Made by a program: the position numbers and the translations under genes. Positions 3,005-50,851 of a DNA stretch of 64,000 bases are shown here, in pieces. How positions within the stretch are numbered: position 1 is the first letter of the stretch; every line of letters starts with the position of its first letter. Under the pieces are notes generated by a model. It saw only the letters and a program-made list of their open reading frames with translations. It was not told the DNA's origin and ran no database searches. Source of the DNA: Clostridiaceae bacterium BL-3 (GTDB lineage: Bacteria > Bacillota > Clostridia > Clostridiales > Clostridiaceae); assembly GCA_902809985.1 (NCBI GenBank), contig CADDXC010000001.1, forward strand, positions 2,046,001-2,110,000, given 5' to 3'.

Positions 3005-3119
3005 TATTTACCTCATCTTCCAGAACTGTGTTCTGATGGACTTAGCACCTTACATGTACCAATTAATACATGGGTTGCTGAAACTTCATCGGGCCATTCC
3101 CTAAGTTTCTCTTGATAAG
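3005..3119 (-). promoter_or_regulatory. SAM-I (S-box) riboswitch aptamer
   Basis: The minus strand carries the hallmark S-box segments in order: CTTATCAAGAGA at 3119, GGGAATGGCCCGATGAAG, TTTCAGCAACC, GGTGCTAAGTCC, and GATGAGG near 3012. These are the kink-turn, the SAM-binding core and P4 of the SAM-I class. Binding of S-adenosylmethionine is expected to favour the terminator at 2931-2963. Confidence 0.95.
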
Positions 3120-3144
3120 GGTTAATATTAAATTATTGACTTTA

Positions 3145-22724: not shown

Positions 22725-22890
22725 CCTTCCCTCCGAAAGATTCTTATGCATACAGGTACAGGCAGGTCTCCTGACTATCGGCTCATCCTCTTTTTTCCTT
22801 CCCGGAACAATCCAGTGAAAAATTAAAATTGTCACCTCATACAGTAGCGGGGGCTGTAATGGTATTTCACCATATTCCCTTTTAATTATC
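22725..22890 (-). promoter_or_regulatory. Cobalamin (adenosylcobalamin class) riboswitch
   Basis: The minus strand shows the expected conserved pieces in order: GGGAATATGGTGAAATACC, ACAGCCCCCGCTACTGTA, a CACTGG ... GGGAAGG pair, GATGAGCCGATAGTCAGGAGACCTGCCTGTA (the B12 box region near 22751-22790). It has its own consensus promoter and a terminator. No gene for cobalamin or corrinoid metabolism follows; the next minus-strand gene encodes the SIR2-like protein. Confidence 0.94.
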
Positions 22891-22927
22891 ATTTAAACCA
22901 TATACCCTATTATTAAGTTATGCATTC

Positions 22928-23365: not shown

Positions 23366-23881
23366 TTATACCTGTTTAATTGCTCCCCTTTTCACTGCCA
23401 CATTTATTATATTGAATAAGACCGCACCTACTACAGTATTTACAACAGCTGCAGGCAAAACTACACTTAAAAATAATGCTGTAAAGCTAGCTCCAAGTCC
23501 TACCGTAAACAAAACTACCGTTAAGAATGTAGTACCGCTTACTATCGTTCCAACTGCTGTAGCCAGTATTATATTTATCTGATTGCTTATTCTATCTCTA
23601 AAAGGCTTTATTAAGACAAACATCACATTTATAGTTATGAATTTATCAATTACATTGGCAAATTGCCCTCCTGGAAAAGTTGAAGTTGCTGCTGCTAATA
23701 TTCCCGCTATAACACCTGAACAAACGCAGGTCTTGTAATCTTTATTAAATATAAGTATTATAAAAAGCATTGCAAGGGATATATCAGGTTTCATACCAAA
23801 TAAAATTGGAGGCACTATCTGATGCAGTACTGCACCAACTGCAAGTAATATGGAATTTATAATCATTTTTTTTAAGTTCAT
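23366..23881 (-). CDS. trpP: Tryptophan transporter TrpP
   Basis: A 171-residue membrane protein with about five hydrophobic helices. The start MNLKKMIINSILLAVGAVLHQ, the GMKPDISLAMLFIIL block and the STFPGGQFANVIDK loop are typical of the TrpP/YhaG family of tryptophan transporters. The upstream T-box with a TGG specifier independently supports tryptophan as the substrate. ATG 23881 follows TAGGAGTG. It is a single-gene transcript. Confidence 0.93.
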   Translation of the reverse strand: MNLKKMIINSILLAVGAVLHQIVPPILFGMKPDISLAMLFIILIFNKDYKTCVCSGVIAGILAAATSTFPGGQFANVIDKFITINVMFVLIKPFRDRISNQINIILATAVGTIVSGTTFLTVVLFTVGLGASFTALFLSVVLPAAVVNTVVGAVLFNIINVAVKRGAIKQV

Positions 23882-24009: not shown

Positions 24010-24270
24010 AAAAAACTCCATCCTAGAAAACTAGGACGGAGATATCCGCGGTACCACCTAAATTGTGTTTATTTAAAAACACCTCTCTTTCAGATACAAA
24101 CATATCCTATCCGTTATAACGTACGGCTGACGTTAACCACTACTTTCTACCTTGAGTAGATTTCAATTTACTCCTCTTAGGTCCATTCACTACATACTCA
24201 GTATTGGGATTCCACCTTTTCCAACTCTCTGTCACTTAACTACATAGTTACTCTTCCTCGTCAAAGGATT
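24010..24270 (-). promoter_or_regulatory. T-box riboswitch, tryptophan specifier (TGG)
   Basis: On the minus strand a long Stem I region ends in GTGAATGGACC, where TGG (24183-24185) is the specifier codon. The T-box TTTAGGTGGTACCGCGG (24043-24060) follows, then a terminator made of CTCCGTCCTAG and CTAGGATGGAG. Uncharged tRNA-Trp should pair with TGG and stabilise the antiterminator, allowing trpP expression. Confidence 0.96.
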
Positions 24271-24289
24271 TAATATTTAAATTAAAAAT

Positions 24290-29872: not shown

Positions 29873-32044
29873 TTAAAATCTCATGGTCCTCATAGAATTA
29901 AACACCGCTATAAGGGCAACTCCCACATCTCCAAATACCGCTTCCCATATATTGGCTATTCCCAGAGCTCCCAAAACCAAAATTACAAATTTTACTCCCA
30001 GGGCAATCACTATATTTTGTACAACTATTTTTTTGGTTTTTCTCGCTATTTTAATGGCTACTGGTATTTTTGAAGGTTCATCCGTCATTATAACCACGTC
30101 CGCAGCTTCTATGGCAGCATCTGAACCAATTCCTCCCATGGCCACTCCTACATCTGCTCTTGCAAGCACCGGAGCATCATTAATTCCATCCCCTACAAAT
30201 GCCAATTTATGTCTTCCATTATTTCTGCCGTATATTTCTTCTAATTTTTTCACTTTTCCATCTGGGAGAAGTTCTGTATACACCTCATCCAATCCGATAT
30301 TTTCCGCTACTTTTTTCCCTGCTGAATAGCTATCTCCAGTTAACATTATCACCTTTCCTATGCCCACTTTCTTTAAACTTTCCACTGCTTCTCTGGAATC
30401 TTCCTTTATTTCATCAGATATAACTATATATCCTGCATAATTGCGGTCAACTGCCACATGTACTACAGTTCCTATTTCCTGAACTTTTTCTCCCGCAATT
30501 TTATTATCCAGCATCAAATTTCCATTTCCAACCAGCACTTGAACACCATTTACATTAGCCTGTATACCTTTTCCCGGAATTTCATTATAGTCTTTTATCA
30601 AATTCCTCTCTATTCCTTTATTATAAGCTCTTAATATTGAAGTTGAAATAGGATGATTCGAATAAGACTCGGCATAGGATGCATATTTTAAAATGTCTTC
30701 TTCTTTAAAATCGCCGCAGTTTTTCACTTTCGCAACCTCAAATACCCCTTTAGTCAGAGTACCCGTTTTGTCAAATACCACCGTATTTACATCATTTAGA
30801 GCTTCTAAGTAGTTTCCTCCTTTTACAAGGATTCCATTTTTAGAAGCACTTCCTATTCCCCCGAAGAATCCCAGCGGTATGGATATAACAAGTGCGCAGG
30901 GACAAGAAACTACCAAAAATATCAATGCTCTATAAAACCAGTCGGAAAAAGTTTCTCCACTCATGAGAACAGGTGGAAGGACAGCTAGCATAAAGGACAA
31001 TATAACTACTGCAGGAGTATAATATCTGGCAAATTTGGTTATAAAATTTTCAGTAGGAGCTTTTTTACTGCTGGCATTTTGAACTAAATCCAATATTCTG
31101 GCCACAGTAGATTGTCCAAATTCCTTGGTTACTTTTACAGACAGCACTCCATTTTTATTTATAAATCCACCCAATACCTCATCGCCTATAGAAACCTTCT
31201 TTGGAAGTGATTCTCCAGTAAGAGCTGAAGTATCAATCATGGAATCTCCGTTTATTACTTTTCCATCAAGAGGTATTTTTTCTCCCGGCTTGATCAATAT
31301 TATATCTCCAATATTTACTTCCTCCGGAGCCATCTTTTTTACTCCATCCTCCACTTTTACACTGGCAAAATCCGGTTTTATATTCATTAAATTTGATATG
31401 GATTTTCTGGAATTATCTACAGCTCTATCCTGAAAATACTCACCAATTCTATAAAACAGCATTACTGCCACAGCCTCTGGAAACTGCTTAATGGAAAGAG
31501 CACCTATACTTGCAATGCACATTAAGAAATTCTCATCAAATACCTGTCCTCTAATTATATTTCTAAAAGCTTTTAATAATATTTCTCTTCCAATTATAAT
31601 ATAGCTTATCAAATACAATGTCATTTCTATTTTGAACTGAAAGTTAAAAATTATAGCACTTATATAGAGCACAACACCTATTCCCTGAATTATATTTTCC
31701 ATTCTGTTATTTTTTGTTTCATCACAATTTCCTTTTTCCTCCGATTTAAGATTTTTCGTGCCATATAGTACCTTTACTTCCGGTTCTATCGTATTTATTA
31801 TATTTTCTATTTTTTTTACAACATAATCCAGCTTTTGTTCGTCTTCCAATTGTACAATAAGTTTCTTAGACAGAAAATCTAAATATGCAGTCTTTATTTC
31901 AGGAATATTCTTTACCCGACTTTCAATTTTACTGGCACAATTAGCACAGCATAAGTTCTCCAGTATAAACTCTCTTTTTTTATCATTACCTTTAACATCT
32001 ATAATCCTACTGTCACTTAATTTGCCGTCCACAGTCACATTCAT
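29873..32044 (-). CDS. Heavy-metal P1B ATPase, Zn/Cd/Pb-export type
   Basis: A 723-residue P-type ATPase. One N-terminal HMA domain with CCANCASKIE, then membrane helices, the actuator TGES, the metal-site helix SCPCALVISIPLGFFGG, the phosphorylation loop DKTGTLTKG, and the GDGINDAP hinge. CPC followed by ALVIS with a later lysine/aspartate rather than NY/MS elements is typical of Zn/Cd exporters, not copper. ATG 32044 follows GGAGGG. It is cut off from the copper operon by a terminator and has its own promoter and operator. Confidence 0.92.
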   Translation of the reverse strand: MNVTVDGKLSDSRIIDVKGNDKKREFILENLCCANCASKIESRVKNIPEIKTAYLDFLSKKLIVQLEDEQKLDYVVKKIENIINTIEPEVKVLYGTKNLKSEEKGNCDETKNNRMENIIQGIGVVLYISAIIFNFQFKIEMTLYLISYIIIGREILLKAFRNIIRGQVFDENFLMCIASIGALSIKQFPEAVAVMLFYRIGEYFQDRAVDNSRKSISNLMNIKPDFASVKVEDGVKKMAPEEVNIGDIILIKPGEKIPLDGKVINGDSMIDTSALTGESLPKKVSIGDEVLGGFINKNGVLSVKVTKEFGQSTVARILDLVQNASSKKAPTENFITKFARYYTPAVVILSFMLAVLPPVLMSGETFSDWFYRALIFLVVSCPCALVISIPLGFFGGIGSASKNGILVKGGNYLEALNDVNTVVFDKTGTLTKGVFEVAKVKNCGDFKEEDILKYASYAESYSNHPISTSILRAYNKGIERNLIKDYNEIPGKGIQANVNGVQVLVGNGNLMLDNKIAGEKVQEIGTVVHVAVDRNYAGYIVISDEIKEDSREAVESLKKVGIGKVIMLTGDSYSAGKKVAENIGLDEVYTELLPDGKVKKLEEIYGRNNGRHKLAFVGDGINDAPVLARADVGVAMGGIGSDAAIEAADVVIMTDEPSKIPVAIKIARKTKKIVVQNIVIALGVKFVILVLGALGIANIWEAVFGDVGVALIAVFNSMRTMRF

Positions 32045-37567: not shown

Positions 37568-38077
37568 TTACAGATTCCCGGTATAAACTTTAATTATACT
37601 CTTCAATACACTTTCAACAGTATCTACATTTTTAACAGAAAAGTCACAGCAATTCATATAAATATGATATCTGTCTTTAAAAATTTTCTCAATTTCCCCT
37701 GTATTATTTTTTAAAAGGGGCCTGTTATCTATATCCAAATCACAGATTATTTTTTCAAGCGGTCTATCTATAAAAATTATCAATCCTTTTTTCCTAAGAT
37801 TTAATATATTTTCCTCATTTTTTATTACTCCTCCGCCTGTGGATATCACAATATTTTCTTTTTGACTCACTTGACTTACTGCCTTTAATTCTAAATTCCT
37901 GAAAAACTTCTCTCCACCTTCAAAAATTTCTGAAATAGTACGTCCCTGCTGTTTTTCTATATAATCATCTATATCTATAAAACCCTTATTTAATTCCTTG
38001 GATAACATTCTGCCTATGGTAGTTTTCCCGGATCCAGGCATACCTATGAGAACTACATTTTTATATATTCTCTTCAT
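37568..38077 (-). CDS. aroK: Shikimate kinase
   Basis: A 169-residue kinase that phosphorylates shikimate with ATP, the fifth step of the pathway. Walker A GMPGSGKTT (residues 12-20), the shikimate site DIDDYIEKQQGR, FFRNLE and STGGGVI are all present, and the lid region is IDNRPLLK. ATG 38077 lies four bases after the aroE stop. Last gene of the operon. Confidence 0.95.
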   Translation of the reverse strand: MKRIYKNVVLIGMPGSGKTTIGRMLSKELNKGFIDIDDYIEKQQGRTISEIFEGGEKFFRNLELKAVSQVSQKENIVISTGGGVIKNEENILNLRKKGLIIFIDRPLEKIICDLDIDNRPLLKNNTGEIEKIFKDRYHIYMNCCDFSVKNVDTVESVLKSIIKVYTGNL

Positions 38078-38080
38078 AAA

Positions 38081-38893
38081 TCAAATCTTTTTCCCTTGTC
38101 TCAAATCATTATATATTTTATCTATAATTTTCAAAGGTATTTCTCTTCCCTGCCAAATTCGCTGAGATGCTGCAGCCTGGGCCACCAACATATATAATCC
38201 ATTCACAGTATTAAGTCCTAACTCATCTGACAACTTCAGAAATAAAGTACTTTGAGGATTGTATATCAAATCCACTGCTGTGTTAAATTTACTTAAAATT
38301 TTCCTATCTACAGGACAATCATTTATATCCGGGTACATTCCACAGGGTGTACAATTTATTATAATATCACCTTTTTTTATTTTACGCAGTCCATCATAGC
38401 TTATAACTTTAAATCCGTATTCATGAAATTTATGCGGATCTCTACTTACATATACCATATCCCTGGCCCCATTGTCTAAAATATATCTGGCTACAGCTTT
38501 GGAAACTCCTCCTGTACCCAACAGTATTACGGTTTTATTAAATAGCTCTATATCATATCTTTTTAAGGTCAATCCAAAACCATAATAATCAGTGTTATGA
38601 CCTATCAATTCATCATCGATAAACTCTATGGTATTCACGGCCCCTATGTCCTTTGCCTCTTTGGATATTTCATTCAAATACTTCATAATTTCAACTTTAT
38701 AGGGTATGGTCACATTTATACCTCTGCACCCCAAAATTCTTAAGCTCTCCAGCGATTTGCCTAGATCTTTTCCCTCTATTTCAAAGAGATTATATTCTCC
38801 ACTCTTCCCCATAACATCCAAAATAAGATGATGTATAACAGGAGAAAAACTATGCACTAATGTTTTTCCTATAAGACCATAAAAATCACTCAA
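38081..38893 (-). CDS. aroE: Shikimate dehydrogenase
   Basis: A 270-residue NADPH-dependent enzyme that reduces 3-dehydroshikimate. The substrate site FSPVIHHL, catalytic Lys in NVTIPYKVEIMKYL, NTDYYGF and the nucleotide-binding LLGTGGVSKAV are visible. The start is TTG 38893 behind GGAGGTGAG. A short dispersed-type repeat separates it from pheA. Confidence 0.95.
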   Translation of the reverse strand: MSDFYGLIGKTLVHSFSPVIHHLILDVMGKSGEYNLFEIEGKDLGKSLESLRILGCRGINVTIPYKVEIMKYLNEISKEAKDIGAVNTIEFIDDELIGHNTDYYGFGLTLKRYDIELFNKTVILLGTGGVSKAVARYILDNGARDMVYVSRDPHKFHEYGFKVISYDGLRKIKKGDIIINCTPCGMYPDINDCPVDRKILSKFNTAVDLIYNPQSTLFLKLSDELGLNTVNGLYMLVAQAAASQRIWQGREIPLKIIDKIYNDLRQGKKI

Positions 38894-38968: not shown

Positions 38969-40087
38969 TTATCCTTCCCTATAATTTCCCAGTAATTTAA
39001 AATAGGAGCTCTCTTTTTTTATTCCCTCCAGTGCACTTTTAGTCCCCATCTCCATTATATTTCCATAAAAATCAATACAAAAAAAATACTGCCACGGTCT
39101 GTTTACCATAGGTCTTGACTCTATTTTAGTCATATTTAAGTTATTTTCCCAGAAGAACTTGAGTACATTGTATAAACTTCCAACTTTATGGGGTAGAGTA
39201 ATGAGAATAGTGATTTTATCGCATTTTCTATCATATACCATATTCCTGCTTATTACTATGAATCTTGTATAATTATAGCTGTTGTAATTTATATTTTCCT
39301 TCAATACATCCAATCCATAAAATTCCGCAGCTTTCCTGCTGGCTATGGAAGCTTTACTCTTGTCATTCTCTTTCTTTATGTATTCAGCACTTTTAGCTGT
39401 ATTAAAATAAGGTATAAGCTTCCAATGTTTGTGTTTTTTTAAAAATTTACTGCTCTGCATAAATGCCTGACTATGTGAATATACTTCCTCTATGTCTTCT
39501 ATTGAAGCTCCCGGAACACCTAGAAGGTTATGGTTTACTTTAATACACTTCTCTCCCACTATATAAAGATCATATTTTTCAAGCAGATCATAGACTTGAG
39601 AAATTCCTCCAGTAGAAGAATTTTCAATTGGAAGGATTCCATAATCTACATTCCCATTTTCCAGTGAATTAAACACATCTTCAAAGTTATCAAAGCCTAG
39701 GGTTTTAACCTTATCCCCAAAATAGTCAATTAGAGCTTCATAACTAAAAGACGCCAGTATACCCTGAAATCCGACTTTACAGGAATGGTTATACCCCATT
39801 ATTTCCGGTTTATTATCTTCCTTTATCTTTTTCTCTTGAAGGTCTCTACTTATACTCATAATGTCTCTCAAAAAAGTTTCTATTTCGTTTTTCATGGAGC
39901 TTTGTTTAAAATTCTCTAATTGTGTTTTTATGATATTCTCTTCCCTATTTTCATCCAGTACATTCATATGATTTTCTTTCTTGTACTCAGCTACTTTAGA
40001 AACCACATTCATTCTCTCAATAAAAATTCTAACCATTTCTCCATCTAATTTATTTATTTTATTCCTTAATTCATCCAAACTTTCCAA
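38969..40087 (-). CDS. pheA: Bifunctional chorismate mutase / prephenate dehydratase
   Basis: A 372-residue fused enzyme for phenylalanine synthesis. Residues 1 to about 90 are an AroQ chorismate mutase (LRNKINKLDGEMVRIFIERM). Residues about 108-285 are prephenate dehydratase (VGFQGILASFSYEA, YGILPIENSSTGGI, NYTRFIVISR). Residues about 290-372 are an ACT domain (LPHKVGSLYNVLKFF, KIESRPMVNRPWQYFFCIDF), the site of Phe feedback inhibition. TTG 40087 lies just after GGGGGTGATATT. Confidence 0.95.
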   Translation of the reverse strand: MESLDELRNKINKLDGEMVRIFIERMNVVSKVAEYKKENHMNVLDENREENIIKTQLENFKQSSMKNEIETFLRDIMSISRDLQEKKIKEDNKPEIMGYNHSCKVGFQGILASFSYEALIDYFGDKVKTLGFDNFEDVFNSLENGNVDYGILPIENSSTGGISQVYDLLEKYDLYIVGEKCIKVNHNLLGVPGASIEDIEEVYSHSQAFMQSSKFLKKHKHWKLIPYFNTAKSAEYIKKENDKSKASIASRKAAEFYGLDVLKENINYNSYNYTRFIVISRNMVYDRKCDKITILITLPHKVGSLYNVLKFFWENNLNMTKIESRPMVNRPWQYFFCIDFYGNIMEMGTKSALEGIKKESSYFKLLGNYREG

Positions 40088-40102: not shown

Positions 40103-41185
40103 TCACTCATCCATTAAATTCAATATTCCAATAGCTGTAACCGCCTCTATTACCGGCACAGCCCTGGGTACAATACAGGGATCATGTCTTCCCTCTATTT
40201 TCAAAATCTCCTTCTTTTCATTTCTAATATTCACAGTCCTTTGAGGTTTTGCTATAGAGGGAGTTGGTTTTACAGCTGCCCTAAATACAAGAGGCATGCC
40301 ATCCGTGATTCCTCCTAGAATTCCTCCGTTATTATTCGTGTAAGTTTTTATTTTATGATCTTCTGACATATAGTATTCGTCATTGGCCTCTGAGCCTTTC
40401 ATAGTGGTCATATTAAATCCCATTCCAAATTCCACTCCCTTAACTGCAGGAATAGAAAATAAAAGATGGGAAAGAGTACTTTCCACCGAATCAAAAAATG
40501 GATCACCTATACCTGCTGGTAAATTTAAAACTATCGTCTCTACAATTCCTCCAAGGGAATCCCCTTCTGACTTGGTTTTTAATATACTGTCCTTCATTTT
40601 TTTGCAGTAATCTTCATCTAGTACAGGAAATTTGTCTTTTGAAAGCTCCCTGAGCATATTCTCATCGGTAGAAACAACGTCAAAGCTTTTCTTATCTTTA
40701 ATTGTGCCTATGCTCTCTATACGGCTTCCTATTATTATTCCTCTTTCCTCTAATATATTTCTGCATAATGCACCAGCAAAAACCAGCGGTGCTGTGAGCC
40801 TCCCCGAAAAATGGCCTCCTCCTCTGTAATCATTAAAGCCATTATATTTAACTTTTCCAGTAAAATCTGCATGCCCCGGTCTCAATATATCCGAAGTTTT
40901 TTCGTAGTGTTCTGAGTGAGTGTCATTGTTCAGTATAATTGCACAAAGAGGTGTGCCCGTTGTCTTACCTTTAAAATACCCACTTAAAATCTGAAAATTA
41001 TCCTCCTCTCTCCTGGCTGTAGAAAATTCTGTAAATCCCGGTGCCCTTCTTTTCATCTGTCCTCTTATATATTCCAGATCAATTTTTATACCAGGCTTCA
41101 ATCCGTCTATAGTAATGCCTACAGATTTTCCATGGGACTCGCCAAAGATGGATAATTTTATTTTATTTCCCCATATTCCGCTCAT
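40103..41185 (-). CDS. aroC: Chorismate synthase
   Basis: A 360-residue flavin-dependent enzyme that makes chorismate from EPSP. Signature regions are [44 protein letters not shown] and the C-terminal [18 protein letters not shown]. Its first 23 bases overlap the end of aroA, so translation is probably coupled. ATG 41185 follows TAGGAGG. Confidence 0.96.
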
Positions 41186-42449
41186 TTATATTTCCTCCTA
41201 AGTTCTTAAAATCTTTCCAAAAATTTGGATAGGACTTTTTCACACATTCGGCTCCTTTTATTATCATAGGGTTCTGACATTTTGAAGACACCGATGCCAG
41301 AGCCATGGCTATCCTATGATCATCCCAGCTGTTCACCTCGCCGCCTGTGAGTTTTTCCCTCCCTGCTATAATGAGTCCATCTTCTTTTTCTACTACATTC
41401 CCTCCTATTTTATTCAACTCCGTTGATATGGCCTTAAGTCTGTCTGACTCCTTAACTCTGAGCCTTCCTGCATTTTTAATTTCAGTAGTACCACAGCTCA
41501 CAGAGGCCAAAACTGCAAGTGCAGGTACAAGATCAGGACATTGTGAAGCATCAATAGTGCTGCTGTAAATTTTACGGGCGGGACTGACAACTAAGCCGCC
41601 TTTCTCCCATTCAATTTTCACACCCATTTTTCTGAGTATATCTACTACGATCTTGTCTCCCTGAAGAGAGTCTTTTTTTAATCCGCAGCAAGTAATACCT
41701 TTGCCAAGGGCTCCCATGATAAGCCAAAAGGCGGACTGTGAAAAATCTCCTTCCACCTCATAGTAGTCTCTGCTCTTATATTTCTGCCCTCCCCTAACTG
41801 TATATTTTCCATGCCCATCTTCATCCACATTTATTCCAAATTTTTTTAGTAAATCCAGTGTAATATCCACATAGGGTTTGGATTCCAACGGAGTGGTTAC
41901 ATATATTGTAGAATCTCCATTTAACCTTGGAAGGGCAAACAAAAGCCCTGTTATAAATTGAGAACTCACATCTCCTCTAACCCTGTATTCCCCCGATTTC
42001 AATTTCCCCTTTAAAATCAGGGGCAGCTTTCCCTTAAAATTTTTATAATATATTTTTTGACTGTCAAATATATCATAATAAATATCAAGAGGCCTCTTCA
42101 CCAATTTTCCCTCACCTGTAAAAATAATTTCTTCATCAATTGTAGCAGCTATAGGTATTAAAAATCTTATGGTAGAACCTGACTGTAAACAATTTATACT
42201 GGTATTTTTTACATGGATCCTGGAATTTCCTTTTACAATCAAATTATTTTTTCCCCTTTGTATTTCTGCACCCAAATTCTCCATGGCATCACAGGTAGCT
42301 TCTATATCCCTGGAAAAATCCACATTTCCTATATTGCTAATACCATCACATAGTGAAGCGCATATTATTGCTCTGTGACATATGCTTTTAGAAGTGGGAA
42401 CAATCACTTTTCCCTTTAATTCAGATGGTTTTATGTATAAATACCTCAA
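41163..42449 (-). CDS. aroA: 3-phosphoshikimate 1-carboxyvinyltransferase (EPSP synthase)
   Basis: About 428 residues. The enzyme transfers an enolpyruvyl group from PEP to shikimate 3-phosphate. Visible are [32 protein letters not shown], the [17 protein letters not shown] block and [11 protein letters not shown]. The start is TTG 42449, eight bases after GAGGAG. An ATG at 42467 overlaps the aroB stop but has no ribosome site. The N-terminal GKxxxPxSKS and LxxGNxGT-type elements resemble class II EPSP synthases. Confidence 0.94.
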
Positions 42450-42463
42450 AATACATTCTCCTC

Positions 42464-43546
42464 TCATTTTGTTTCATCTAAAAATAAAAACTCCTGCACT
42501 TGAGGTATCTTTACTTTCATTATTCTTGCTTTTCCCACTTCTTCTAAAACTATAAGATTTAAAGTACCATTACTTGATGATTTTTTGTCCAGCGCTATAG
42601 AATCTACAGCAGCCTCCCTGTTTAAATCCGGTATACAAGTGGGAAGCACATATTTCTCCAATATGTATTTCATATAATCATAAGTCCCGCTTTTAGTAAT
42701 GCCCATTTCTTCAGTTCTTCTAGTTATAGCAGCCATACCAATGGCTACAGCTTCTCCATGGCTGTATTTTACATAATTATAATACTTCTCTACAGCATGC
42801 CCCAGAGTATGCCCAAAATTCAACATCATCCTATCTCCTAAATCCCTTTCATCCATCTCCACCAGTTGTTTTTTTATATTACAGCATTTACATATTATAT
42901 CTTCAATATTATTTAAAACATCGTTTTTACTGGGAAGGGAAGCTAAAGTTTCTAAAATACTTTTATCACGTATAAATCCATATTTTATAACTTCAGACAT
43001 TCCATCACTAAAAAATCTATCATTTAAAGATACAAGCACTTCAGGATCTATAAATACAGCATCTGGATGATAAAAACTTCCTACCAGATTTTTTCCCCAG
43101 GGTAAATCCACTGCTACTTTTCCTCCTATACTGCTGTCAACCTGTGCCAAAATCGAAGTCGGCACCTGAATGTATCTTATTCCCCTTAAATAAGTAGCTG
43201 CAGCAAAGCCCGCCAGATCTCCTACTACTCCACCTCCAAGAGAAATTATAATATCACTTCTTCTAGTATTGAACTTGCATAAATTCTCATATACCCCTTT
43301 CAGTACATCCAGAGTTTTACTTTTTTCTCCCGGCGGTATGGATATTGAATTCACTTTAAATCCAGCACTCAAAAGTGATTCTCTAAGTGTGTTCAAATAT
43401 AATTTTCCCACATTGCAATCAGTAATTACAACTACATTTCTACTTTTGTATACAGATTTCAATTTTTCTCCTATACATTTTAAACTTCCTCTCTCTATAT
43501 AGATTTTATAACATTTTTCTTTAAGATTTATACTAATAATATTCAT
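42464..43546 (-). CDS. aroB: 3-dehydroquinate synthase
   Basis: A 360-residue NAD- and metal-dependent enzyme that cyclises DAHP to 3-dehydroquinate. Recognisable are [52 protein letters not shown] and [13 protein letters not shown] with its metal-binding histidines. ATG 43546 follows GGTAAGGATAG. It sits in mid-operon, overlapping the optional aroA start. Confidence 0.96.
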
Positions 43547-43559
43547 AAAATCACTATCC

Positions 43560-44429
43560 TTACCTCTTAACTAGAGCTTTTCTCCTGCGAATTGCATTTT
43601 GAAAAATATGATCTATGCTCTTCATATCCCTGTATATTATAGCTGTTTTTAATCTATCTATACTCCTTTGAAATCTTTCTATTTCATCTACCAATTTATT
43701 AGAATTCATTATAAACAATTGACTCCACAGCCCTGAGTTGATCTGTGCCACCCTGGTGGCGTCCCTAAAACTTCCCCCCGTAAACAGCGCCATATGGTCT
43801 ATAAAGCCTTCCTCATGGGAATTCATAAGAGAAACAGCTACAACATGTGGAAGCTGACTGGTAAAAGCGATTGCATCATCATGCTCTTCCGGACTAACAT
43901 AAGTCACATTGCTGCAGCCCATTTTTCTGGCCATGGTGTCTATTACTTTAAGTCCCCTGGAAGTATTCTTACTGCTTGGTGTTATTATATAGTTGGCTTT
44001 TGTAAAAATATCCGCTGAGGCAAACTCTATTCCTCTGCACTCTCTGCCTGTCATAGGATGTCCTGAAACAAATTCCATTCCATCAGGCAAAAATGCATTT
44101 ATATTGTTTACCACGTCCTTCTTTACACTTGAAGTATCTGTTATAAGCACTTCCATTTTAAAATTACTTAGATTATTTTTTACAAACTCCACTGTATCCC
44201 TAGGATAAAGAGCTATTATAGCCAGATCAACTTCCTTCAAGAACCTTCCACCGCTTTCATATCCCCTATCTATAATACCCCTGTGCAGAGCATTATCTAA
44301 AGCTTTTTTGTCTTTATCTATTCCAATTATACTCTTTGGATTTAGAACTCTAAGTGCCATAGCATAGGACCCCCCAATAAGTCCCATTCCAACAACAGCT
44401 ATATTCACTTTAAAGTCACAATCTTCCAC
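43560..44429 (-). CDS. tyrA: Prephenate dehydrogenase
   Basis: About 289 residues. It oxidises prephenate to 4-hydroxyphenylpyruvate for tyrosine synthesis. The NAD-binding VVGMGLIGGSYAMALR lies near the N-terminus, followed by VLITDTSSVKKDV, the substrate site SGHPMTGRECRGIEFA, and TSQLPHVVAVSLM. No ACT domain is fused. GTG 44429 lies nine bases after AAGGAGGTG; the ATG at 44456 precedes that ribosome site and is unlikely. Confidence 0.94.
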   Translation of the reverse strand: MEDCDFKVNIAVVGMGLIGGSYAMALRVLNPKSIIGIDKDKKALDNALHRGIIDRGYESGGRFLKEVDLAIIALYPRDTVEFVKNNLSNFKMEVLITDTSSVKKDVVNNINAFLPDGMEFVSGHPMTGRECRGIEFASADIFTKANYIITPSSKNTSRGLKVIDTMARKMGCSNVTYVSPEEHDDAIAFTSQLPHVVAVSLMNSHEEGFIDHMALFTGGSFRDATRVAQINSGLWSQLFIMNSNKLVDEIERFQRSIDRLKTAIIYRDMKSIDHIFQNAIRRRKALVKR

Positions 44430-44460
44430 GTGTAACTTCACCTCCTTAAATATCATAGTA

Positions 44461-45495
44461 TTATATGTTCACAACATCGTACTCCCTGCTCATTCCCGCA
44501 TTTATCATCTTATCTATATCTTTCATAAGCTTTTGGAACACTTTTGGCTTTATGGACTGCTGTCCATCACATTTTGCATTGACAGGATCATTATGAACTT
44601 CTATCATAAGCCCATCTGCCCCTACAGCCACTGCCGCTTTAGCCAATGGTTCAACCATCCACCAAATTCCTGCTGCATGACTAGGATCTACTATTACTGG
44701 AAGATGACTTAATTTTTTTATAACTGGTACAGCACTTAAATCCAATGTATTTCTTGTGTAAGTCTCAAAAGTTCTTATTCCTCTTTCACAGAGTATTACA
44801 TTTTCATTTCCACCGGACATTATATACTCAGCAGACATGAGCAATTCTTCAATAGTAGCTGAAATTCCTCTTTTCAAAAGAATGGGTTTCTTAGTCTTCC
44901 CAAGCTGTTTTAAGAGCTCAAAATTCTGCATATTTCTCGCTCCAACCTGTATTATATCCACATCTTCAACAAATCTATCTATCATGTCAGTGGACATGAT
45001 CTCCGTAACTATGGGAAGTCCTGTCTCCTCCCTGGCTATTTTCAAAAGCTCCAGTCCTCTGACTCTGAGTCCCTGAAAGCTGTAAGGTGAAGTCCTGGGC
45101 TTAAAAGCACCTCCTCTTAAAAATTTAGCTCCGCTCTTTTTTACATCTTTTGCAATACTTACAATCTGTTCTTCACTTTCTACAGAACATGGACCTGCTA
45201 TAACAGCTAGCTCATCTCCACCAATAGACCCATCTTTTATTTTTACCACGGTATTATCTGGATGAAATAATCTATTAGAAAGTTTGTAGGGCTGCTGTAC
45301 CTTTTTTACATTTTCCACAAATTCATTAGCTCTAATTTTGCCTGCATCAACTGTCGTAGTATCTCCAATAAGACCCAGCACACAATACTCCTTTCCCTGT
45401 ATTACATTTACCGATACATCATTATCCATCTCAATTTTTTGTTTTAACATCATTATCTCTTTCAATGGCGACTTTGGCTTCATAATCACTATCAT
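44461..45495 (-). CDS. aroF: DAHP synthase (3-deoxy-7-phosphoheptulonate synthase)
   Basis: A 344-residue enzyme for the first step of the shikimate pathway, condensing PEP with erythrose 4-phosphate. An N-terminal ferredoxin-like regulatory domain of about 90 residues precedes the catalytic barrel, which shows AGPCSVESEEQ, KFLRGGAFKPRTSPYSFQG, VGARNMQNFELL, LLKRG and VDPSHAAG. This is the AroG/AroF type found in Firmicutes and Thermotoga. ATG 45495 follows GGGAGG. It is the first structural gene of the operon, right after the attenuator. Confidence 0.96.
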   Translation of the reverse strand: MIVIMKPKSPLKEIMMLKQKIEMDNDVSVNVIQGKEYCVLGLIGDTTTVDAGKIRANEFVENVKKVQQPYKLSNRLFHPDNTVVKIKDGSIGGDELAVIAGPCSVESEEQIVSIAKDVKKSGAKFLRGGAFKPRTSPYSFQGLRVRGLELLKIAREETGLPIVTEIMSTDMIDRFVEDVDIIQVGARNMQNFELLKQLGKTKKPILLKRGISATIEELLMSAEYIMSGGNENVILCERGIRTFETYTRNTLDLSAVPVIKKLSHLPVIVDPSHAAGIWWMVEPLAKAAVAVGADGLMIEVHNDPVNAKCDGQQSIKPKVFQKLMKDIDKMINAGMSREYDVVNI

Positions 45496-45529: not shown

Positions 45530-45562
45530 TAAAAAGACAAGGCCTCTTAATGAGCCTTGTCT
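45530..45562 (-). terminator. Attenuator terminator before aroF
   Basis: On the minus strand AGACAAGGC and GCCTTGTCT are perfect 9-base arms, extended by CTC/GAG, and run into TTTTTATTTTATTT. It stands 35 bases before the aroF start, between the aromatic-rich leader ORF and the operon. Confidence 0.92.
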
Positions 45563-45608
45563 AAAGTTAACCAATTACATTTTCACCCAGTATGCAAGAA
45601 GATTTGAA

Positions 45609-45764
45609 TCAACACACATAACTATATCTACTCATTAGAAGGAATCTTAAATATTTTTGAAAGCAAAAATAACCAGCGCTAAAATAAAAATAGCCCCAGC
45701 TAAAAGTAAAGTAATAGTAATTTCTATTTACTGCTTTCATTTTCCTCCCAATGATATTTTTCAC
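45609..45764 (-). CDS. Aromatic-rich leader peptide of the aro operon (probable attenuation peptide)
   Basis: A short ORF of 51 residues from GTG 45764, or 43 from the in-frame ATG 45740, ending in TGA at 45609. GTG lies nine bases after AGGGAGGT and ATG lies just after GGGAGGAAA, so both have ribosome sites. The core NYYYFTFSWGYFYF and SAGYFCF gives 13 aromatic residues in 20; in all there are nine Tyr, seven Phe and one Trp. Stalling at these codons when aromatic amino acids are scarce could prevent the downstream terminator. A +1 frame would encode a hydrophobic helix, but it has no start codon. Confidence 0.75.
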   Translation of the reverse strand: MKNIIGRKMKAVNRNYYYFTFSWGYFYFSAGYFCFQKYLRFLLMSRYSYVC

Positions 45765-45816
45765 TTTGTTTTTACCTCCCTATTATAATGTAAACTACGA
45801 AATCTATTTGTTTTTA

Positions 45817-45844
45817 ATTATAACAGGTTCTTTTTTTATGTCAA
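45817..45844 (-). promoter_or_regulatory. Consensus promoter of the aro operon
   Basis: TTGACA (45839-45844) and TATAAT (45817-45822) match the sigma-A consensus exactly, 16 bases apart on the minus strand. The transcript would begin about 45 bases before the leader peptide. Confidence 0.9.
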
Positions 45845-46022: not shown

Positions 46023-47249
46023 ATGAATAAGTACAAGAAATTAGTCTTTGCTTTTTTTATTTCTGCATCTCTTATTAACAACAAAAATATAATAAATACC
46101 GTACATGCTGCTGGTATTTTACCAAATATTCAAAGCAGCGCCTATACTGCAGTTGGAAATATATTTGCCAAATGCGGCTACAGCGGGCAATGCACCTGGT
46201 TTACATATGGAAGGGTTCTTGAAAAATTAGGGATTGCACTTCCTTCGGAATTTTACGGAAATGCGGTTGATTGGTGGTATGCCAATGCAAGGGATAATGT
46301 GTATCCTTATGGTTCTGAACCAAAGGCAAATTCCATAATAGTATGGGGTGGTGGTCCCGTTGGATACGGACATGTTGGCTTTGTAGAAAAAGTGGAGGGT
46401 AATACCGTATATTTTAACGAAGGCAATTTTAGCATAAGGGGCAATTATGACGGGAATGTAAAAACTCTCTCAAAAGAAGCCATAAAAAACAGGGGCAACT
46501 TATATCTAAAAGGATACATATATGTGGGGAACGGAAGGCAATCAGTTCCAACTTCATCTTCAAGCAGCAGCTCTTCCGGAGGTACCAATACTTATAAGAC
46601 CGGAATTGTAAATATTTCAGACAGTAATTCATCTTTAAATGTAAGAAATGGGGCAGGCACGTCCTTTGGAATACTTGGAAGCTTAAGAAAGGGACAGTCC
46701 GTTGAAATAGTTGGCTCTGTGGGAAGCTGGTATAAGATCAAGTTAAATTCATCCTATGGATATGTAGCTTCTACCTACATAAATTCAGGGGGAGGCAGTA
46801 CTTCAACTTCTAGCGGAACTTCTTCCTCCAGTTCAAAAACAGGTTATGTTAAACTTCAAAATAGCTCTTCATCTTTGAATCTGAGAACAGCACCTCAGGG
46901 TTCCATAATAGGTTCCCTGTCAAATGGAACTTCGGTTACTATTTCGGGAAGTTCCGGCAGCTGGTACAAAGTAACTGCAAATGGTAGAACAGGCTATGTT
47001 TACTCTAGCTATATAAGTCTTTCCCAATCTTCGTCTACATCGGCAGCTTCTAAATCCAAGACCGGCACTGTAATTTTAAATAATAGATCTTCAGTCTTAA
47101 ATTTAAGAAACAGTCCATGGACAGGCCGTGTTCTCACAATTCTTCCTTATGGAAGTAAAGTTACAATTTTAAGTACTGATGGCCGTTGGTATAAAGTACA
47201 GGCAGGATCTATAATTGGATATGTTCATTCGGATTATATAAGAGTTTAA
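46023..47249 (+). CDS. Secreted CHAP-domain peptidoglycan hydrolase with three SH3 repeats
   Basis: A 408-residue exported protein. A signal peptide (about residues 1-30, ending VHAAG) precedes a CHAP domain with catalytic Cys in GQCTWFTYGR and His in GYGHVGFVEKV. Three bacterial SH3 domains follow, each with the SLNVRNGAG / SLNLRTAPQ / VLNLRNSPW pattern and a WYKI/V end, joined by Ser-rich linkers. It should cleave or remodel peptidoglycan outside the cell. ATG 46023 follows AGGAGGACAC. Confidence 0.94.
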   Translation: MNKYKKLVFAFFISASLINNKNIINTVHAAGILPNIQSSAYTAVGNIFAKCGYSGQCTWFTYGRVLEKLGIALPSEFYGNAVDWWYANARDNVYPYGSEPKANSIIVWGGGPVGYGHVGFVEKVEGNTVYFNEGNFSIRGNYDGNVKTLSKEAIKNRGNLYLKGYIYVGNGRQSVPTSSSSSSSSGGTNTYKTGIVNISDSNSSLNVRNGAGTSFGILGSLRKGQSVEIVGSVGSWYKIKLNSSYGYVASTYINSGGGSTSTSSGTSSSSSKTGYVKLQNSSSSLNLRTAPQGSIIGSLSNGTSVTISGSSGSWYKVTANGRTGYVYSSYISLSQSSSTSAASKSKTGTVILNNRSSVLNLRNSPWTGRVLTILPYGSKVTILSTDGRWYKVQAGSIIGYVHSDYIRV

Positions 47250-50668: not shown

Positions 50669-50792
50669 AGGCTGGATGAAGTTAGTGGAATACATTGATA
50701 GACCGTTAACTGACAAGCCTCTGGAGAGACTCTCAAAGAGCACCGAAGGGGAAAACTGATTACAGTGAAACTCTCAGGTAAAAGGGACGGGG
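50669..50792 (+). promoter_or_regulatory. Glycine riboswitch (one aptamer with upstream ghost stem)
   Basis: GGAGAGACTCTC, GCACCGAAGGGG and CTCTCAGGTAAAAGGGACGGGGG form a complete glycine aptamer at about 50719-50792. The segment before it (50669-50719) folds as AGGCT/AAGCC plus GTTA/TAAC arms but lacks the binding core, as in singlet glycine riboswitches with a degenerate partner. Confidence 0.93.
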
Positions 50793-50851
50793 GATTTTTT
50801 ATTTAAAATAGTAGATTTCAGCTATTTTACTATTCTAATTCCTTGTTTACC

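Follow-up and report, generated by a model that had tools for sequence, protein, structure and literature searches.

An aromatic leader peptide and a candidate ribosome-mediated attenuator upstream of a clostridial aro operon

The aro operon in the 64,000-nucleotide stretch of DNA analysed here (the window) is preceded by a short open reading frame rich in aromatic codons, and this leader is very probably a ribosome-mediated transcription attenuator, which would respond to how much charged Phe- and Tyr-tRNA is available and govern the whole operon. An earlier note on this DNA had read the aromatic leader as an attenuator, and that reading is now supported by a frame test among relatives and by a recurring pairing between the tail of the ORF and the terminator (2:3). 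Two further elements, the pairing of early leader codons with the ORF tail (1:2) and a hairpin inside the aromatic core, are shown by comparison among relatives, both with covariation. The earlier account missed region 1, the core hairpin and the RNA pairing behind much of the non-aromatic part of the peptide motif. It is covariation, and not a single sequence, that points to trp-style attenuation of the entire aromatic pathway in a genome with 31 T-boxes.

The aromatic reading frame and its conservation

The leader is arranged on the minus strand in the order promoter, Shine–Dalgarno (SD) sequence, ORF, intrinsic terminator and aroF, which starts at 45495 (Table 1). Downstream, the eight operon genes, all typed by Pfam, lie in the order aroF-tyrA-aroB-aroA-aroC-pheA-aroE-aroK. 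The earlier note had described a consensus promoter, a ribosome site, 13 Tyr, Phe or Trp codons among 20 consecutive ones (YYYFTFSWGYFYFSAGYFCF), a stop and a strong intrinsic terminator followed by aroF; each of these was found as described when checked base by base. The terminator was the only one in 801 bases scanned, compared with a mean of 0.2 in shuffled sequence. Promoter-like sites scoring at least 10 of 12 within 110 nt upstream are present for 65 of 76 leaders, a raw count without a chance control. The note had also given the ORF two starts. The GTG stands, whereas we rejected the inner ATG as a real start: this column is ATG in only 7 of the 71 sequences having a letter there. The inner GGGAGG belongs to region 1. 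On the other strand, a divergent gene for a putative secreted CHAP/SH3-like protein (46023–47249, +) starts ∼180 bases from the aro −35 box.

Table 1. Coordinates of the aro leader elements and operon genes in the window
Feature	Positions	Strand	Remarks
Promoter TTGACA, 16-nt spacer, TATAAT	45817..45844	-	12/12 consensus matches; sigma-70-like; −35 at 45844-45839, −10 at 45822-45817; TG precedes −10
Leader ribosome-binding site GGGAGGT	45774..45780	-
Leader ORF VKNIIGRKMKAVNRNYYYFTFSWGYFYFSAGYFCFQKYLRFLLMSRYSYVC	45609..45764	-	51 codons; GTG 45764 to TGA at 45609; GTG aligned with relatives' ATG starts
Region 1 UCAUUGGGAGGAA	45742..45754	-	codons 4-8; unbroken 13-bp helix with region 2, including two G.U pairs
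Sensor stretch	45660..45719	-	13 aromatic codons in 20; aromatic codons kept in family
Core hairpin	45670..45702	-	arms 45702-45691 and 45681-45670; loop 45690-45682
Region 2 UUCCUUCUAAUGAG	45631..45644	-	ORF tail; would pair with region 1 (45644-45632) or region 3 (45642-45631)
Intrinsic terminator (regions 3:4)	45535..45562	-	10 bp, then TTTTATTTTA
Region 3 CUCAUUAAGAGG	45543..45554	-	terminator top; 11 of 12 positions could pair with region 2 as antiterminator
aroF, DAHP synthase with ferredoxin-like domain	44461..45495	-	first structural gene; Pfam PF00793, PF18152
tyrA, prephenate dehydrogenase	43560..44456	-	Pfam PF02153, PF20463
aroB, 3-dehydroquinate synthase	42464..43546	-	Pfam PF01761
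aroA, EPSP synthase	41163..42467	-	Pfam PF00275
aroC, chorismate synthase	40103..41185	-	Pfam PF01264
pheA, chorismate mutase-prephenate dehydratase	38969..40087	-	Pfam PF01817, PF00800
aroE, shikimate dehydrogenase	38081..38893	-	Pfam PF08501
aroK, shikimate kinase	37568..38077	-	Pfam PF01202

When the 500 nt upstream of aroF in the window were shuffled with dinucleotide composition kept, an SD-preceded ORF as aromatic as the observed one arose once in 3000 shuffles. Of 163 aroF upstream regions, 104 contain, within 500 nt, an ORF behind an SD sequence in which 8 or more of 15 codons are aromatic; among dinucleotide shuffles of such regions the figure is 1 of 1630 (0.06%). A scan of the whole window, on both strands, gave exactly one other site with that score, which lies antisense inside a long gene (29873–32044).

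In the host's family, an aromatic-rich ORF (score at least 7) is present in 76 of the 87 aroF upstream regions examined. These 87 loci comprise 34 returned by searches and 53 more fetched at full length, leaving out partial or low-scoring matches, G108 (at a contig edge), the distant paralogues L094 and L095, and the cut loci L116 and L117. Six of the 11 regions without the ORF belong to second aroF copies ∼7 kb downstream of the first (L143, L153, L155, L156, L159 and L162), and in a seventh, L163, the leader of the operon stands before aroB instead; L145, L146, L150 and L171 have no aromatic ORF, for no ready reason. Genomes G116, G094, G038, G073, G066 and G028 carry two full-length aroF genes ∼7 kb apart, with the leader only at the upstream copy. 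Among 80 loci mostly from other families, 34 of the 76 that are long enough reach 8 aromatics, so the leader, though frequent outside the family, is by no means the rule there. Second, weak HMM matches in three congeners are 29-codon frames, at the same place in all three, which we took as chance frames; neither an SD-like leader layout nor a downstream aro gene was seen at them.

A frequent form of the family peptide is MKNIIGKGI...FYFSWGYFYFSAGYFxCKK. The first point to note is that its frame is kept. Among 68 family sequences (tested without L006, L007, L011, L022, L164 and L166–L168), none has a stop in the core when read in the ORF frame, 7 have one when read in +1, and all 68 when read in +2. 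The aromatic ORF, as shown by this comparison, is under frame-specific selection, and the +1 hydrophobic frame, interrupted in 7 of the 68 relatives, was rejected. In the same sequences 327 of the 340 codons in five core columns are aromatic, and the core codons are mainly TTT, TAT, TAC and TTC, with TTA and TTG absent. Phe and Tyr interchange within the core while the aromatic class is kept. Residue counts were taken from 76 distinct peptides: one frequent Trp position is W in 52, L in 18 and Q in 6, and a Cys/Tyr-x-Lys stretch after the core is conserved, with Lys in 67 of 76 and the codon AAA in all of those 67 (45660–45650 in the window).

Pairings within the leader RNA

Region 1, which encodes the 'NIIGK' part of the peptide, is complementary to region 2 in the ORF tail. 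Of 123 loci with an ORF score of at least 7, 90 also had both motifs, and in the 84 remaining after removal of duplicates the 1:2 duplex has an energy of −10.8 kcal/mol with its own partners, as against −7.57 kcal/mol (sd 0.24) when partners are swapped among loci. The best 10-bp register has 553 of 660 cells paired in 68 sequences (named non-family or divergent loci left out), a value reached in 0 of 2000 permutations, with the register picked on the same data, region 2 placed by its motif and phylogeny ignored in the permutations. One position of this helix shows G-C, U-A and A-U. Region 1 set against region 3, as a control, showed nothing above chance: 65.5% of cells are paired, a level matched or exceeded in 376 of 2000 permutations.

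Within the loop that 1:2 would enclose, the codons S-W-G of the aromatic core pair with S-A-G to form a hairpin, which in the window consists of 7 pairs (three of them G.U), a G.G mismatch and 4 pairs. RNAalifold recovered the core hairpin, and not 1:2, from 71 leaders (named non-family or divergent loci left out). In a codon alignment built from 72 of the 76 peptides (four left out), 648 of 720 cells are paired, and two-sided changes number 18 where 3.2 are expected (0 of 2000 permutations as high, phylogeny being ignored); registers slid along the alignment are at most 52% paired. The compensatory changes run from C-G to U-A in three genera, and from G-C to A-U in two and to U-A in one.

The nested structure of 1:2 and the core hairpin was also scored with a separate counter on a 45-sequence alignment picked for diversity (A2). 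Here 90.3% of cells are paired, compared with 86.5% in shuffles, two-sided cells number 31 against 8.2, and the covariation score is 0.243 against 0.183. None of 500 shuffles was as high on four of the five measures; on the fifth, the number of pairs with a two-sided change (9 against 5.1), 3 of 500 were. Slid versions of the structure are 27.5 to 52.9% paired.

This pairing accounts for features of the peptide that might otherwise be attributed to the nascent chain. The first Ser codon ends in C in 68 of 68 sequences, compared with 30% AGC among AGC plus AGT in the aroF genes of 33 loci, and pairing in the hairpin explains both this bias and the tolerated changes of Ser to Asn and of Trp to Leu or Gln. 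The two-sided covariation means that SWG...SAG is conserved in large part through RNA pairing. A nascent-chain arrest peptide of the TnaC type is for these reasons unlikely. In such a peptide, FSWGYYYFSAG would bring the ribosome to a halt by itself, possibly after binding free Phe or Tyr, and that halt would operate the terminator. The S-W-G and S-A-G residues, whose conservation over many genera would suit an arrest peptide, track the pairing, and compensation alters the residue: S becomes N where GGC becomes GGT, and W becomes L or Q. The C-ending Ser codon, the exchange of F and Y in the core, and a tail element read in three frames also speak against arrest. The Lys after the core is not accounted for by the described pairings, and its conservation is the remaining point in favour of an arrest peptide. 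We had considered SWG...SAG as an arrest motif and dropped it once the core hairpin was seen.

The same covariation and nested structure could be read as an RNA-only sensor, that is, a riboswitch or protein-binding element in which the reading frame is incidental. This is very unlikely. At loop columns 41 and 42 of the alignment, 134 of 136 codons begin with T and every one ends in T or C, whereas the middle base varies between T and A, as in Phe and Tyr codons. An SD sequence and a start codon are present, and no Rfam family matches at gathering score.

Turning to the terminator, the earlier note had suspected that TAATGAG (45637–45631) pairs with CTCATTA (45554–45548). Both lie at these positions, and the complementarity is larger than first described, extending over 45642–45631 with 45554–45543. 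UAAUGAG is almost invariant near the end of the ORF, yet it falls in three reading frames, in 44, 20 and 3 of 67 relatives respectively (named non-family or divergent loci left out), being read as SNEF, as LMS or, in L083, through the stop codon. The stop codon itself lies between −20 and +54 nt from region 2 across leaders. That region 2 is kept across different frames implies a constraint at the RNA level. A small functional peptide (membrane or secreted), or a hydrophobic ORF arising by chance, would fit the hydrophobic aromatic sequence and the good ribosome site, but has next to no probability, given that in relatives the tail shifts frame or ends early while the RNA element stays, and that the ORF sits between the promoter and terminator of the aro genes.

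The suspected pairing of region 2 with CUCAUUA at the top of the terminator recurs through the family, where 512 of 544 cells are paired; 84 of 2000 permutations are as high, so that this is little beyond composition. Since the helix is nearly invariant, family covariation is not shown for 2:3. Further evidence comes from 33 loci of other families (L033, L034, L059 and one short locus being left out), where the ORF tail binds its own terminator with a mean of −14.4 kcal/mol, compared with −11.1 kcal/mol (sd 0.43) for swapped terminators; 0 of 10000 permutations were as low, and reversing the segment gave −10.8 kcal/mol. Only 4 of these 33 loci pair best of all with their own terminator.

Folding of the leader and the proposed attenuation mechanism

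The elements expected of an attenuator are thus present: a translatable short ORF before the first gene, a frame-conserved run of codons for the end product, an intrinsic terminator between the ORF and aroF, a 1:2 pairing which would sequester the antiterminator strand when the leader is untranslated, and a putative antiterminator pairing that shares bases with the terminator, the last by complementarity, not covariation, within the family. The proposed sequence of events is as follows. With ample Phe and Tyr, the ribosome would run through the core to the stop codon and cover region 2 or nearby bases, and the 3:4 terminator would form. When Phe or Tyr is short, the ribosome would stall in the core and melt the core hairpin; stalled and trailing ribosomes would occupy region 1, region 2 would be free to pair with region 3 ahead of the synthesis of region 4, and the polymerase would read into aroF. 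A stall late in the core would expose region 1, so that its masking would need queued ribosomes. If the leader is untranslated, 1:2 would form around the core hairpin, leading to termination. More speculatively, the core hairpin may act as a pause hairpin which lets the ribosome catch up.

Partition-function folding was carried out on 67 leaders (named non-family or divergent loci left out), with pairing across the ribosome forbidden by assumption. Without a ribosome, the median probability is 0.79 for 1:2 and 0.04 for 2:3. With a ribosome stalled in the core, the median for 2:3 rises to 0.69, and with the ribosome at the stop codon it is 0.00. As modelled, these medians follow the logic of the trp attenuator. 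Individual leaders vary: 1:2 forms above 0.5 in 48 of 67 and not in 19, 13 form 2:3 without a ribosome, and 18 stay at or below 0.5 for 2:3 when the ribosome is stalled. The leader in the window itself reaches only 0.32 for 2:3 in the stalled state. At full-length equilibrium 3:4 wins in 66, 63 and 66 of the 67 leaders (no ribosome, stalled, at the stop). Since 3:4 is favoured at equilibrium even in the stalled state, antitermination would have to be kinetic.

Distribution, T-boxes and related systems

A covariance model (R1) was built from the 45-sequence alignment and run with strict filters at E ≤ 0.001. It matched, once each, 27 of 291 genomes of the class and 13 of 398 genomes of the phylum, two of them being in both lists. 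The resulting 38 genomes fall in 16 families, 29 of them outside the host's family, and include the window's own genome along with further family members whose sequences had gone into the model. The next gene encodes DAHP synthase (aroF) in 34 of 38: 23 of 27 in the class and all 11 of the further ones in the phylum. The four other targets are aroB (L201), tyrA (L194) and two symporter-like genes (L208 and L211), which makes 36 aromatic-pathway and 2 symporter-like neighbours. Pfam types the aroB and tyrA genes clearly, and the gene after the tyrA of L194 was read as pheA. Applied to far loci, R1 found 10 of 71 at E ≤ 1, five of them below 0.01.

These neighbours bear on whether the leader could be a general sensor of translation rate, such that any slowdown at a structured ORF derepresses the operon and nothing is specific to aromatic residues. 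The stable, conserved structure in the ORF and the dispensable Trp codon would agree with this, but ∼28% of residues over 67 peptides are aromatic and all 38 matches adjoin aromatic-pathway or symporter-like genes, making a rate sensor highly unlikely.

The symporter-like gene piece at L208 matches SSF at E 1.4e-4, just under the Pfam curated cut-off, and that at L211 is symporter-like by resemblance only. The leader frame begins at ∼524 and the symporter frame at ∼838 in L208, and the leader frame at ∼702 in L211; both leaders, and the least clear aroF leader (L251), encode an aromatic peptide. The presence of the same leader type before them suggests that these genes encode an aromatic amino acid transporter. 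Genome G015 has a further leader of the same type (L185), before a shikimate kinase-like gene, and in L005 an Rfam Clostridiales-2 RNA (1851–1931) lies between the attenuator terminator and aroF.

A wider interpretation is possible, and we hold it tentatively, with slightly less than even confidence. The leader may represent an old, undescribed RNA family spanning 16 or more families of Firmicutes. One stretch of ∼35 bases would then be under selection twice over, as Phe/Tyr codons setting the pace of the ribosome and as a hairpin setting that of the polymerase. Such a leader would pool two amino acids in one signal, their codons being interchangeable, replace T-boxes at aro operons, and identify an SSF-like symporter as transporting aromatic amino acids. 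For annotation, the analysis supplies a covariance model. It also offers a case in which selection on codons and on RNA can be studied at the same bases, a starting point for work on uncharacterised transporters, and perhaps a handle on clostridia used in fermentation.

No plasmid match was obtained in a search with the leader. At the leader, Rfam 15 gave no family at gathering score; four families at E ≤ 10 were well under their cut-offs, the best being SpF39 with 32.3 bits against a cut-off of 60. The T-box covariance model (RF00230) did not match at the aroF leader site, while it matched elsewhere in the window and genome. The host genome has 31 T-boxes above the cut-off, none at aroF. Some precede genes typed by Pfam as Phe-tRNA synthetase and W/Y-type tRNA synthetase, and one in the window (24029–24273, −) precedes the gene for the tryptophan transporter TrpP (23366–23881). 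Together with the aro leader, the latter would mean that two sensor types serve aromatic amino acids in a single genome. A T-box resembles the proposed attenuator in sensing charged tRNA, and differs from it in having no peptide. Among 36 other loci scanned with Rfam, a T-box precedes aroF in four (L019, L033, L044 and L045), and no aromatic leader was found at these (ORF scores 4 to 6), which is a putative switch of sensor in relatives.

Leader-peptide attenuators are familiar from proteobacteria, for example trpL and pheL of E. coli. In Firmicutes, the regulators usually associated with amino-acid operons are T-boxes and TRAP. Like the proteobacterial trp, phe and his attenuators, the aro leader has a promoter, an SD sequence, a short ORF rich in end-product codons, mutually exclusive 1:2, 2:3 and 3:4 pairings and an intrinsic terminator before the operon. 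In contrast to them, its regions 1 and 2 flank the sensor codons, region 1 at the first codons of the ORF and region 2 at its tail, and a conserved hairpin is formed by the sensor codons themselves. The sensor also mixes Phe with Tyr codons, and the host genome carries many T-boxes. The kind of mechanism is known already; what appears new within the literature found is the RNA family, the hairpin in the sensor, the pairing of region 1 and how widely the element is distributed. Two papers could hold partial precedents: Vitreschak et al. (2004), whose abstract is said to mention some attenuators in low-GC Gram-positive bacteria, and, reportedly, Lopatovskaya et al. (2010).

The nearest precedent found is an upstream ORF before aroF in Acholeplasma (PMC8632094). 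The motif concerned, uORFC-13-1, comprises 24 sequences, from Acholeplasma and environmental samples, and attenuation was proposed for it. As described there, it has an ORF upstream of aroF with a possible promoter and ribosome-binding site, at least one Phe codon, a terminator right after it and another paired substructure, so that the likeness is one of description only. T-boxes are given as the usual Firmicute control at amino-acid operons in PMC2965389, and his leader-peptide attenuation is described as background in PMC9413887. His leader peptides are predicted at hisZ/hisS in bacilli (PMC2965389) and in the C. difficile group, the B. cereus group and Erysipelotrichales (PMC9413887); those of C. 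difficile are cited in PMC4833913. They likewise represent leader-peptide attenuation where relatives use T-boxes (PMC2965389, PMC9413887), but for a different amino acid, operon and sequence. According to PMC5794164, the S. aureus ilv-leu operon has a leucine-rich attenuator peptide, and mutations in the attenuator were selected. It is another Firmicute biosynthetic operon with a leader peptide, terminator and alternative fold, unlike the aro leader in serving branched-chain amino acids and in its RNA architecture.

An aromatic leader peptide in clostridia was not found in literature judged by titles and the starts of abstracts, with few subscription papers covered. A text search of PMC8040213 gave none of its terms, and one of PMC2864571 gave nothing on an aro leader element. 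The statement in the earlier note that there was no described case in Clostridium therefore holds for aromatic leaders in the literature found, and not for leader peptides in general, His leaders having been predicted in C. difficile (PMC9413887, PMC4833913). Other riboswitches in the window recognised by Rfam are SAM (3010–3121, −), cobalamin (22744–22918, −) and glycine (50711–50800, +).
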